A stretch of DNA of 41,602 nt from a virus. Below are positions 3,146 through 40,961 of the stretch, piece by piece (positions within the stretch are counted from its first letter, which is position 1; each line of letters begins with the position of its first letter). A model generated the notes under the pieces. The model ran no database searches, was not told where the DNA came from, and was given only the letters and a program-made list of their open reading frames with translations. Location of the stretch: the IMG/VR virus record IMGVR_UViG_3300035158_000318, positions 1-41,602 of that record, one strand, 5' to 3'. The position numbers and the translations under genes were made by a program.

Positions 3146-3792
3146 TTATATTTCAAATTCCAATTCTTCTGGATATTCCGTTAATCTCTTTTCATTATGA
3201 TAATCTAAATTGTCTTTCATAAAAATTGGGATATTATACGCCTTTGCTTTATCAATTAATACATTCAGCCATTCTTTTCTTGGTTGTCTTTTGCAAGGCC
3301 TTTCCATAGCACCTATAATAAGCCATTTAACAGGTGGTATTATATGATCCACTCTATTTAAAAATGGTTCTACACTTACAAAACAATTTTCATTTGGCTT
3401 CAGAATCTTCTTAATATGTAAATATGCTACTTCTCCTGTGATAGTAACACCTTTCCAACAATTATCTGGAAAAACTATATCCATATATCTATAAGGGTTT
3501 TTGGTAAGAAATAAAAATCTATGTTGTGGATATTCTTTACATGTATCAAGAATTTTATGAATGACATCATATGTAACCCAATCACCAAACAAATCTGCCA
3601 TGCTGCATACAAATATCTTGCTTGGCTTCTTGATCTTTTTCAGTTTTTCTAATCTCTTAGGATGATATGTTGGTTGAAAACCTTGTGGATATAAAGCTGT
3701 TCCCGGGCATAACAATACCAACAGCCATTATTGCAGCCTGTAATGGGATTCCAGGTATAATCACACCATTCTATCTTTGTTTTATTTACCAT
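3146..3792 (-). pseudogene. DUF5131 (phage Gp37/Gp68-like) gene, frameshifted
   Basis: Reading from the ATG at 3792 gives MVNKTKIEWCDYTWNPITGC and then the Cys cluster CNNGCWYCYAR, the usual start of DUF5131, a radical-SAM-like family of phages. Just after CYAR the frame breaks at about 3700-3708, and the rest (PGTALYPQGFQP, CSMADLFGDW, FLFLTKNP, SVEPFL) continues in another frame to 3146. The total of 647 nt is not a multiple of three. About 8-12 expected residues between CYAR and PGTALYP are missing, and CCGGGAA sits exactly at the junction, so a deletion between short repeats is likely. An assembly or sequencing error is possible. Confidence 0.75.
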
Positions 3793-3979
3793 ATCCTTTT
3801 GCTTTTTTAATATCATCAACAAATTCACAACGAACCCAACTTGTAACTGCTGCTTTCATTTCTTCAACGCTTATTTTTCCCCAAGTGATGAATGTGCAAT
3901 TAATAAAATATATGCAATCATCAATCTTTGTTTCTGGACCAACATAAATTACTGCGTTCTTGATTATCATATAATCCAT
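3782..3979 (-). CDS. Hypothetical protein
   Basis: A 65-residue protein: a beta-like N-terminal half (MIIKNAVIYVGPETKIDD, then CIYFINCTFITWG) with two Cys, and a helical C-terminal half (ISVEEMKAAVTSW). No family recognised. Its ATG overlaps the stop of the resolvase gene (TAATG), and its end overlaps the DUF5131 start by 11 nt, so it belongs to the same coupled gene string. Confidence 0.6.
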   Translation of the reverse strand: MDYMIIKNAVIYVGPETKIDDCIYFINCTFITWGKISVEEMKAAVTSWVRCEFVDDIKKAKGYGK

Positions 3980-4366
3980 TATCCTATCTCCTTTATCTTT
4001 CCAAAATATGCTAACAAGTAACCGTCTGCTATTCCATGATGTGGCTTCTTTAGCTTTCCTGGTGTAAGATCCACATCAGGGAACAACCTTTCACATGCAA
4101 GAATAGATCTGCCTTTACCTTCCCCAATAATACCACTATAAACTGTCTTTGTCCATGTTCTTGGTGGTGGTGTTATATAGGGAATCCCCAGGCCAACACA
4201 AAGCCCCATTAATAAGCCATATCCACACATAAGCTTACCTGTAGCCACAATGCCCTGTTTTGGGAATGTGTGTTGCTGTTCAATAATAGCTTGCACATAG
4301 TCTGTTGCATCCTGAAAGCCTTTTAGAATGTCCCTGATTCTGTTTTCATCATACCATTTCTTTTTA
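3979..4366 (-). pseudogene. RuvC-like Holliday junction resolvase, 3' part
   Basis: This is the C-terminal ~129 residues of a phage RuvC-like resolvase: KKKWYDENRI, the acidic active-site strand AIIEQQHTFPKQG, GYGLLMGL, PPRTWTK, and the terminal HHGIADGYLLAYF with the last metal-binding residues. The first 36 residues lie 1.4 kb upstream at 5789-5898. Joining 5898-5789 to 4366-3979 gives 498 nt, an open frame of 165 codons, the normal size for this family. As it stands, this part could only be made from an internal GTG at 4296 and would lack the first catalytic Asp. Confidence 0.85.
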
Positions 4367-4406
4367 TTGGTAAAACTACTTAAGATTTAAATACCTGATA
4401 CAATAA

Positions 4407-5645
4407 TCATTTTCTAAGAATAACAACGCTCTCCCGAGATGGAATCCTCCCATACATTTTCATCTGCTGTGCACTATTGCCACGGTATCGAGCCACTATT
4501 ATTTTCTCACAAGATAATCCAATCTGTTCACCGATTTCGGCTGTCAGTTTATCAACTTCAATAGGCTCCCCATAATACTGAGCATTACCAACAACAAATG
4601 CAATCTTTGCATTATTTTTACATACTCTCTTTATTTCACTTAACGCACAAGAAATATCTAAAAAATAACCTCTTAACATCTCAATGATCCGTACTTCGTG
4701 TTTTTTCATTTGGATTCTGTTTATGACATCAGAAAGTATTATTGGCTCCTTGTAACCGTTACTCCTTGGCCTATTCGGATGGGACTCTGGGTGTGACTGA
4801 AAGCTTTGATAGCGCAACCTTCGGGTATCATGCCAAGAGAGAAATCCGAACATTAACTCAACGCTAAAAACTCTTGTGTAATCATGTCGATTAGGATACG
4901 GAGGTGAAGTAATCACAGCTGAATATGTATTTTCTTTATCAGGTAGGGCACGCACGTCCGAATTCTTAACACACCATTTTCCTTGTTGATGAATCCCGCA
5001 ATCTTCAACATCTTCAATCATGAGATTCACTTGTTTCGAAAAGTCACGCATAATTCCAGATGATCTATTACTTTTATTTACCCATTTCAACCATCCTCCG
5101 CTAGACACAGCTCTACTGTATTCCGGAATCGTTGCCAACAAAGCAAGTTTAAAGAAATCTCGCTCAGCTTTATATGTTCTAAGGTTGACAATATCTGTCA
5201 AAATTGATTCGAAAGTCCCAAGCATCTTCCCGGGTAGCGCCTTATATATTAAATCAGGATAAGTTTTCTTTGTCCCATTCCATTTACTTGTATCAATAGT
5301 AGATTTTAGTGAACCCCAAGATGCCTTCAAATGCCTTAGATTGAAGTTGGTAAGCTTAACCTTAGACGCAAGCACAGCTAACGGCGACAAGTCATAACCA
5401 GTTGCAGAGATTCCTTTTTCTTTTGCAGCTAAGAGTGTTGTCCCAGCACCCACAAAAGGATCGAGCAACCGAGATCTCTTATCTAAATCCCATTCTTCAA
5501 TTAATGTATGTACAAGCTCGCTAGTAAAACTATGAGGGAAAATCAACCAACGATGAATTAATTTATTTGTTAAAGGTCGAGAGGTTACCCACCATTTCCA
5601 TCCTGTCTGCTCCTTAATTGGGTATTTTTCTCTAACTATCGTCAT
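4407..5645 (-). CDS. DNA amino-methyltransferase (N6-adenine or N4-cytosine)
   Basis: A 412-residue SAM-dependent DNA methyltransferase. The SAM-binding motif is LLDPFVGAGTT near residues 60-70, with GYDLSP at 83-88. The catalytic motif is ITSPPYPNRHDY at 245-256. About 180 residues between them probably hold target recognition, giving the order motif I - middle - motif IV. TSPPY enzymes modify exocyclic amino groups of A or C. The ATG at 5645 lies 6 nt after the stop of the HerA-like tail, as in an operon. Codon use is unlike the neighbours. Host-derived restriction or defence origin is inference. Confidence 0.85.
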   Translation of the reverse strand: MTIVREKYPIKEQTGWKWWVTSRPLTNKLIHRWLIFPHSFTSELVHTLIEEWDLDKRSRLLDPFVGAGTTLLAAKEKGISATGYDLSPLAVLASKVKLTNFNLRHLKASWGSLKSTIDTSKWNGTKKTYPDLIYKALPGKMLGTFESILTDIVNLRTYKAERDFFKLALLATIPEYSRAVSSGGWLKWVNKSNRSSGIMRDFSKQVNLMIEDVEDCGIHQQGKWCVKNSDVRALPDKENTYSAVITSPPYPNRHDYTRVFSVELMFGFLSWHDTRRLRYQSFQSHPESHPNRPRSNGYKEPIILSDVINRIQMKKHEVRIIEMLRGYFLDISCALSEIKRVCKNNAKIAFVVGNAQYYGEPIEVDKLTAEIGEQIGLSCEKIIVARYRGNSAQQMKMYGRIPSRESVVILRK

Positions 5646-5651
5646 TCTTCG

Positions 5652-5788
5652 CTAGTGGCCTATCGATTGGTATGCTGGACGCGGAAACTCGATCTTTACA
5701 GGTTGTCTATAAATTGGATGGGACAAGAGTAATTCACCTGCATCTAAACGTGTCAAATGAGCTTTCATATCTTTTGCAATAAATCTAC
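5652..5788 (-). pseudogene. C-terminal remnant of HerA-like (DUF87) ATPase
   Basis: An open frame reads ASRFIAKDMKAHLTRLDAGE, then LLLSHPIYRQPVKIEFPRPA and a TAG at 5652. This resembles the end of HerA/DUF87 ATPases, where a beta segment around LDAGE and a PVKIxFPRP strand follow the ATPase core. Only ~45 codons are present, with no start and no Walker motifs; the rest was lost at the insertion edge. It ends 6 nt before the methyltransferase start, so the two were probably neighbours in the donor operon. The family call rests on the LDAGE/PVKI pattern only. Confidence 0.5.
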
Positions 5789-5898
5789 TTGCCAATATCA
5801 ATAACTGGCATCCTATAGCCTGCAACTGAATTCATAGATTCATCAATTGCACCTATACCACCTGTAAAGCCTGGATCTATTCCTACATATATTTTCAT
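5789..5898 (-). pseudogene. RuvC-like Holliday junction resolvase, 5' part
   Basis: The ATG at 5898 overlaps the preceding stop (ATGA). It opens MKIYVGIDPGFTGGIGAID, the first strand of the RuvC/RNase H fold with the catalytic Asp in IDPG at residue 8. It continues to RMPVIDIG and then runs out of frame at a TAG (5785-5787) inside the insert. The remaining catalytic residues (Glu in IIEQQ, His/Asp in HHGIADG) are in the 3' part. In phages this family resolves branched DNA before packaging. Confidence 0.85.
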
Positions 5899-7788: not shown

Positions 7789-7862
7789 TAGGCCAGAAAG
7801 GATTTGAACCTTTAACCTACAGATTAGAAGTCTGTTGATCTATCCTGTTGATCTACTGGCCC
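7789..7862 (-). tRNA. tRNA-Arg (anticodon UCU)
   Basis: A 74-nt cloverleaf reads cleanly on the minus strand. The acceptor is GGGCCAG/CTGGCCT with one G-U pair. The D arm is GATC/GATC around AACAGGATA. The anticodon arm is ACAGA-CTTCTAA-TCTGT with anticodon TCT, and the T arm is AAAGG-TTCAAAT-CCTTT. The discriminator is A and CCA is not encoded. It reads AGA, the arginine codon favoured in this CpG-poor genome, so it likely supports translation of phage genes. Confidence 0.92.
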
Positions 7863-37670: not shown

Positions 37671-37742
37671 CTAAATGTATTTACCTAAAAAACCTAGATA
37701 TGATATTGATGAAACATTATGTCCTTTACATTTTGGGCACAT
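37671..37742 (-). CDS. 23-residue mini-ORF upstream of TerL
   Basis: An ATG at 37742 inside the end of the methyltransferase gene reads MCPKCKGHNVSSISYLGFLG and stops 4 nt before the TerL ATG. CPKCKGH resembles the other zinc knuckles. As TerL lacks a good SD, this ORF probably couples its translation. It may have no other function. Confidence 0.5.
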   Translation of the reverse strand: MCPKCKGHNVSSISYLGFLGKYI

Positions 37743-38673
37743 ATTTTAACCTTTCTCCTATTGCTTCAATAACATTAACAGTTACTGCATTTCCAATACA
37801 TTTATATCTTTGTGTATCTGATATGCCTTCTGTCCAATTATCAGGAAAGCCTTGTAATCTTTCACATTCTAAAGGTGTAAGCTTTCTAACTCCAAAATTT
37901 CCTTCTATTGCTTGCCCTGATTGACTATCAAGGCAATATGTAAGCCCATCTTTTCTTGATAATGGGCCACTACCAACTGCATTTTTGTTTTTCTTTATAC
38001 TTGGGCGATCGATCGATCGCTTTTGAAGATTATGAACAACAATAATTGTTCTTTGACCATGATTATCAATACCTTTATAATAATTTCCATCTATTGCTGT
38101 TGTAACATCTTTATTGATCTTGCCTTTTTTAATCTTTCTAATACTGTTTTTGATAGGAAATATCTCTGGCCTGGGTTCTTTTCTAATATATCCGATAATG
38201 AAGATTCTTTCCCTGTTTTGGGGTACTCCGTAATTCTTGCTGTTACACACCTGCCATTGACAGTCATACCCCAATTCATGTAAGGATTGAAGGATTGTTG
38301 TAAATGTTCTTCCACCATTATGAGAAAGTAATCCTTTGACGTTCTCAAGGAAAAAATAATTGATTTTTTTATCCCATAAGATCCTGCATATTTCAAAGAA
38401 CAAAGTGCCTCTTGTATCTCTGAAGCCTTTTCTTTTGCCAGCATGACTAAAAGCCTGGCAAGGAAATCCTGCACAGAGCATATCGGCCTTTGGGATGGAA
38501 ATAGATTTAATTGCTCTGATGTCTCTTTCATGTAATTCTCCTTTCCCAAAATGTTTTCTATAAATCTTACAAGCATATTTATCTATATCATTTGCCCATA
38601 CACATTTATGGCCCGTTCTTTCTAACCCAAGCCTGAAACCACCTATACCACAGAATAAATCTATAAATGTCAT
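37726..38673 (-). CDS. C5-cytosine DNA methyltransferase (Dcm-like)
   Basis: A 315-residue enzyme with the ordered motifs of the family: FIDLFCGIGGFRLGL (I), WANDID (II), AGFPCQAFSHAGKRKGF with catalytic Cys72 (IV), FFLENVKGLL (VI), GVPQNRERIFIIGY (VIII), and the final KLTPLECERLQGFPDNWTEG / RYKCIGNAV (IX-X). It methylates C5 of cytosine at an unknown site, probably to evade host restriction. Between VIII and IX a short target region contains a DNA palindrome at 38005-38020. It lies between terminase subunit genes; TAATG overlap with TerS. Confidence 0.92.
   Translation of the reverse strand: MTFIDLFCGIGGFRLGLERTGHKCVWANDIDKYACKIYRKHFGKGELHERDIRAIKSISIPKADMLCAGFPCQAFSHAGKRKGFRDTRGTLFFEICRILWDKKINYFFLENVKGLLSHNGGRTFTTILQSLHELGYDCQWQVCNSKNYGVPQNRERIFIIGYIRKEPRPEIFPIKNSIRKIKKGKINKDVTTAIDGNYYKGIDNHGQRTIIVVHNLQKRSIDRPSIKKNKNAVGSGPLSRKDGLTYCLDSQSGQAIEGNFGVRKLTPLECERLQGFPDNWTEGISDTQRYKCIGNAVTVNVIEAIGERLKYVPKM
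38005..38020. repeat. 16-bp perfect palindrome with three GATC sites
   Basis: GCGATCGATCGATCGC lies within the target-recognition part of the C5-methyltransferase gene (coding RSIDRPSIK). It is perfectly symmetric and contains CpG four times, which is striking in a CpG-poor genome. Confidence 0.8.
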
Positions 38674-40127: not shown

Positions 40128-40961
40128 TCACCAGGAACTAAAATATCCTTGTGTAATTTCCATGAGCAATTCTTCAGCCTTTTCATATTTTGGTTCGTTT
40201 GGCAAACTACTTTTAACATATGCTTCTTCAGCCATCTTAAACAATCTTTCTGCTTCTTCTTTTACTTTTTCAAGCTTCCATTCACCACGCTTAATTGAAA
40301 TCAACTGGTGATTATCTTCTCTGAATACATATAATTTCCCTTCAGTTAAAAATTCTATTCCCATTCTTAACAATCTGATTAAATGTGCTGCATTTTTACA
40401 ATCATATCCAAATCTTTCCACAAGAGCCTTTCTCTTTGCCCCCATATATCCTTCACATTTGAAATGCGTCATTCTCTTGAATTGTCCATATGCATAACCA
40501 TTAAAAGAATGATAAACTTTCTTTGATACAAATAAATCCCGATTATCAATAATCAATTTCCCTGTTTCTGTCATTTTTATATAATGATGTGGCTTTAACC
40601 ACAAAAGAGATAATACATTTGGATTGCTTTTTAATAACAACCTGAAATATTTTCTGATTTCATAGACAACTGAATCCCATTCTTTCAGCTTTTTTTCTTT
40701 TTGTTCAAATCTTTGAAACCCAAAATAATTTTCTTTTGATCCTATACACACACCCATAATATCTTTATCATCAATGGAATTAGGATTATTCTGTGGTATA
40801 TAAGTATTATGTGCTATAGATCCCCTGAAACCCAACAATATCACATTATCAGGTAACAATTCTTTTTCTTCTTCTTTTGATAGATGTTTCAAGGCTTTCT
40901 CCTTTTTTAAAACAAACTTTCCACAACATGGACATTTGACAATTGAATAAAGGGAACTCAT
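40128..40961 (-). CDS. RlaP-like nucleotidyltransferase with zinc finger
   Basis: A 277-residue protein. CPCCGKFVL at 10-18 is an N-terminal zinc knuckle. A pol-beta-type nucleotidyltransferase follows: GFRGSIAHNTY (44-54) with the GS motif, and SIDDKDIMGVCIG (62-74) with the metal-binding Asp residues, as in the RlaP/PF10127 family. The helical remainder (VERFGYDCKNAAHLIRLLRM) matches that family's C-terminal part. RlaP relatives are linked to RNA repair; the substrate here is unknown. It could modify host or phage tRNA (inference). Confidence 0.75.
   Translation of the reverse strand: MSSLYSIVKCPCCGKFVLKKEKALKHLSKEEEKELLPDNVILLGFRGSIAHNTYIPQNNPNSIDDKDIMGVCIGSKENYFGFQRFEQKEKKLKEWDSVVYEIRKYFRLLLKSNPNVLSLLWLKPHHYIKMTETGKLIIDNRDLFVSKKVYHSFNGYAYGQFKRMTHFKCEGYMGAKRKALVERFGYDCKNAAHLIRLLRMGIEFLTEGKLYVFREDNHQLISIKRGEWKLEKVKEEAERLFKMAEEAYVKSSLPNEPKYEKAEELLMEITQGYFSSW

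Follow-up and report, generated by a model that had tools for sequence, protein, structure and literature searches.

A fragment of a tdtA-type operon with a complete methyltransferase gene interrupts a RuvC-like resolvase gene in a phage record

The virus record IMGVR_UViG_3300035158_000318 from IMG/VR, 41,602 bases long and analyzed here in its entirety (the window), carries a broken RuvC-like resolvase gene on its minus strand. The two parts of this gene are separated by an insert with the remnant of one gene and the whole of another; in the direction of transcription, the features of the locus are as follows:

5789-5898, minus strand: 5' part of the resolvase gene, 36 codons, with the first catalytic Asp in the motif IDPG (translation)
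4367-5788, minus strand: insert of about 1422 bases with CAA at both edges; the ends are uncertain by about 3 bases
5652-5786, minus strand: tail of a gene for a HerA/TdtA-type ATPase, with its 44 terminal codons and the stop (tblastn)
4407-5645, minus strand: complete gene for a predicted TSPPY SAM-dependent DNA methyltransferase of 412 aa (profiles, alignment, model)
4367-4406, minus strand: about 40 non-coding bases from the methyltransferase stop to the resolvase 3' part (sequence; no Rfam match)
3979-4366, minus strand: 3' part of the resolvase gene, about 129 codons and stop, open throughout (translation, alignments)

The 5' part of the resolvase gene starts at position 5898 behind a ribosome-binding site (AAAGGAG) and reads MKIYVGIDPGFTGG...DIG, followed by a single K and a TAG stop at 5787-5785; the 3' part, which carries the remaining catalytic residues, is read from 4368 to 3979 as NKKKWYDENRI...EIG and stop. 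Neither half contains stops or shifts, and excision of 4367-5788 leaves 110 + 388 = 498 nt, or 165 codons and a stop. The joined protein matches the PHROG_1770 Holliday junction resolvase profile over residues 1-162 (1.8e-21), shares 27-36% identity with uninterrupted phage resolvases in alignments that extend through the joint, and keeps 20 of 24 conserved positions, the tenth lowest count among 81 sequences and still inside the range of intact relatives. Translation, profile match and alignment thus agree with the first-pass annotation of this DNA, which had described a split resolvase with these coordinates, this frame and 165 codons. By profile and conserved residues the protein belongs to the RuvC-like phage resolvases; what it lacks is the single uninterrupted frame. 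Since the cut after approximately codon 36 leaves the first catalytic residue on a 37-residue stub, separated from the rest of the enzyme, resolvase activity has very probably been lost. No second resolvase was recognized among the phage genes scanned, although many small genes are without assignment.

The same annotation had proposed that related viruses be searched for an intact resolvase, and such genes exist: the 80 best viral relatives kept from a profile scan of viral contigs all run through the joint in an uninterrupted frame, so that among the PHROG_1770 relatives examined the gene is interrupted only here. The loop at the joint measures 17 residues in the joined protein; lengths of 16 and 7 are the most frequent among the aligned rows, and 15-17 residues are present in 36 of the 81. 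Little or nothing was therefore lost or gained at insertion. Searches with the resolvase, the methyltransferase, the capsid and the Sak4-like protein yielded no close relative of the phage, and hence none with an empty site; a terminase search found a best relative at 51%, and no resolvase was seen in those records. As the genes flanking the relatives' resolvases show no synteny with this locus, the empty site is seen at the protein level only. A literature search on interrupted phage resolvases returned nothing pertinent.

The insert opens with the end of an ATPase gene, RFIAKDMKAHLTRL...SIGH, which is truncated by the 5' junction and lies out of frame with the resolvase; six bases separate it from the methyltransferase gene. 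PADLOC and tblastn results confirm the initial reading of the cargo as a whole TSPPY methyltransferase with a truncated HerA-like tail. The insert is foreign to the phage: its tetranucleotide distance from the phage is surpassed by only one of 388 phage windows, and the codon usage of the methyltransferase gene is the most deviant of 17 large genes compared. The CAA trinucleotide that had been reported to flank the insert is indeed present at both edges; it is weak evidence, as a match run of at least three bases at a fixed junction arises in 7% of random pairs, and a target duplication can hence not be told apart from chance.

The insertion is clean, has CAA on either side and leaves a joint that is in frame, as could be expected of a dedicated mobile unit (intron-, intein- or transposon-like) with a modification enzyme as cargo and a splitting or regulating effect on the resolvase; yet each form of this idea conflicts with the anatomy of the insert. 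An intron is rejected: the sole Rfam match in the window is a tRNA, not an intron, and an intron core would not fit, since HerA coding begins right at the 5' edge and the methyltransferase stop lies only about 40 bases from the other end. An intein is excluded because the resolvase frame stops at 5787. The transposon reading was likewise discarded, since a check of repeats, ends and families revealed neither terminal inverted repeats nor a recombinase in the insert, in keeping with the earlier observation that a transposase was missing. A second copy of the insert, which had been suggested as a target of search elsewhere in phages, was not found in viral collections. Altogether, a dedicated mobile unit is highly improbable; the earlier proposal that the insert might split the resolvase conditionally is not supported, and a spliced 498-nt message, which was to be sought, has no basis in the sequence.

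The truncated neighbor gene leads instead to a bacterial operon. The gene order and spacing of the insert recur in 20 bacterial loci, where a HerA tail lies directly upstream of the methyltransferase gene; by tblastn, the phage tail is 88.6% identical to that of locus L013, with identities of 77-89% in seven loci and 80-89% in the closest six. Where the contig is long enough, the operon order is type IIG enzyme, NurA-like nuclease, HerA ATPase and methyltransferase; the type IIG enzyme, which often accompanies the other three genes in bacterial loci, matches PADLOC PDLC03630. A 375-aa operon protein shows a weak profile match to NurA (PDB 7f6d_H, 0.003), and the 585-aa HerA-type ATPase matches the HerA chain 7f6d_B (5e-53). 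L205 carries the complete operon (1084, 375, 585 and 409 aa), and L206 likewise has all four genes. The same four-gene order and nearly the same sizes characterize the tdtA operon of ICETh1 in Thermus thermophilus HB27 (TTC1877-TTC1880), which consists of four co-transcribed genes whose products are the type IIG enzyme (1106 aa), the NurA-like protein (377 aa), TdtA (568 aa) and the PF01555 methylase (410 aa; PMC5365140), and in which loss of the methylase had only minor effects on DNA donation (PMC7767461).

Set against this arrangement, the insert comprises the 3' end of gene 3 and all of gene 4. The tdtA-type assignment was made by gene families, order and size, with the Thermus genes taken by description: the end of the ATPase gene and the methyltransferase of about 410 aa with PF01555 occur in the insert itself, and the type IIG and NurA-like genes in its bacterial relatives. 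Both of the latter are absent from the phage window, where the operon is represented by no more than its last gene and a stub of gene 3. On these grounds the insert is the 3' end of a tdtA-type operon, without rearrangement and cut within the third gene. The notion of a new kind of insertion is consequently not supported, as the DNA comes from an operon that is widespread in bacteria; the underlying observation, that a modification enzyme has been inserted whole into a resolvase gene, is. BREX-related HerA capture systems (PMC12839542) were considered and dismissed, for their gene set differs and has no NurA. The truncated gene belongs to a HerA family whose profile matches 7f6d_B of the HerA-NurA complex of Deinococcus (PDB 7f6d); compared to that complex, the phage has only the last 44 codons, and restriction and methylation genes are additional in the bacterial operons.

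The operon type spans at least six bacterial phyla. Its genes were located in L013-L017, L019-L021, L023, L027, L030, L031, L035, L039 and L041, and further in L046, L047, L052, L205 and L206; their distribution reaches well outside Thermus and includes Planctomycetota, Bacillota, Nitrospirota, Armatimonadota, Chloroflexota, Pseudomonadota and further groups. Among viruses, full-length HerA relatives at 34-35% were observed in Marinitoga camini virus 1 and in a faecal phage (viral loci of HerA and methyltransferase relatives: KP836355.1 38543-40141, MT836743.1 5665-7305, L003 2450-4701).

The methyltransferase itself appears to be intact. It matches PADLOC MTase_II PDLC03224 (4e-65) and Pfam PF01555 and contains the SAM-binding motif DPFVGAGTT at residue 62 and the catalytic TSPPY at residue 246; these motifs and its full length mark it as a predicted Type II-like DNA methyltransferase. 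It keeps 101 of the 106 positions at which 16 relatives are invariant, a share that lies within the range of 94-100% seen among the relatives themselves. A structure model built from 26 sequences has a mean pLDDT of 90.7 and matches methyltransferases. In the phylogenetic tree, the protein falls within a fully supported clade of 16 whose internal branching leaves its exact position open; the HerA gene lies upstream in 10 of the 15 bacterial members of this clade. By profile search, the closest bacterial relative is that of L013 at 58%, and no donor above this value emerged among approximately 1,500 genomes searched. No phage relative exceeds 22% over the length of the protein; the distant relative at this level is found in Haloarcula virus HJTV-2. 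In HJTV-2, the methyltransferase relative adjoins an Eco29kI-type nuclease gene (L003 2450-4701 in the same list of loci).

These findings argue for a real capture of bacterial DNA, which we consider likely whether or not the phage benefits; the fuller account, capture of a bacterial 3' operon fragment by illegitimate recombination, with inactivation of the resolvase and an orphan, possibly protective methyltransferase as the outcome, is reasonably probable as a whole. The phage genome would have broken within the resolvase gene, and a 1.42-kb bacterial fragment would have been joined in by illegitimate, non-homologous recombination during infection; the fragment would have brought along the last 44 ATPase codons and the whole methyltransferase gene of a tdtA-type operon, and its insertion would have separated the first catalytic residue from the rest of the resolvase. 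Upstream of the 5' junction, the HerA frame has no HerA similarity, and no long word shared with the donor therefore explains the 5' joint. The intact resolvase halves and their kept conserved positions fit a recent event, although neither dates the insertion; the capture looks like a recent, one-off occurrence, not like a new kind of mobile element.

The same junctions bear on the possibility that a chimeric library or amplification molecule, or a faulty assembly path, has placed a bacterial fragment in a phage contig. The insert is known from a single record without a close relative, donor and phage could come from one sample, and the adjacent DUF5131 gene is frameshifted; but both junctions fall at neighboring phage bases and restore the resolvase in frame, which two independent misjoins rarely do, and an assembler would have had no long shared word to work with at the 5' junction. 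An artifact is thus less likely than real capture, and on its own terms rather unlikely. The DUF5131 gene follows the resolvase (window 3146-3828, minus strand) and has a radical-SAM-like CxxxCxxC motif; its frameshift lies near 3685-3699, with profile positions 1-32 in the open reading frame 3649-3828 and positions 46-221 in the frame 3146-3721. Given this frameshift, the stretch could be a decaying or faulty one.

Captured DNA could also be a neutral or harmful passenger, with the methyltransferase not made and the record representing a defective phage or a decaying prophage. The broken resolvase and the frameshifted DUF5131 gene beside it would suit such decay, as would the regulatory setting of the methyltransferase gene: it is oriented along phage transcription, and its ATG has no clear ribosome-binding site, while the coupling to HerA translation is gone as the preceding HerA tail does not lie in a translated frame. 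Against this, no stops occur within the resolvase halves or the methyltransferase, their conserved positions are retained, and the scanned structural genes are full length; a mere passenger is accordingly regarded as improbable.

If the captured gene is expressed, its consequence would follow from how restriction-modification works. The methyltransferase, if translated, would modify phage DNA at the site that its parent system recognizes, and this methylation would be expected to protect the phage from the partner type IIG enzyme and its NurA-HerA machinery; such protection is doubtful because of the missing clear ribosome-binding site and the position of the HerA tail outside a translated frame. 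Selection for a shield against a tdtA-type operon of the host, paid for with the resolvase, is a tentative and rather doubtful extension of the capture scenario; if true, that host operon would restrict phages besides donating DNA. Phage orphan methyltransferases derived from restriction-modification systems are likewise complete, without nuclease and possibly protective; in contrast to these, the present gene sits inside a core phage gene together with a piece of its donor's neighboring gene. This truncated neighbor names the donor operon, and the locus can be read as the scar left when a phage acquired a gene from bacteria. The scar links the TdtA-type operon, so far studied for DNA donation in Thermus and found across many phyla, to phages, and raises the question whether the operon restricts phages and whether its fourth gene gives immunity.

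Three further genes on the minus strand of the window can be added. The phage has a second methyltransferase of its own, a C5-cytosine enzyme (37726-38673; PF00145, 7e-97). A tRNA-Arg gene with the anticodon TCT is located at 7789-7862, and an RlaP-like nucleotidyltransferase is encoded at 40128-40961 (PF10127, 2e-15).
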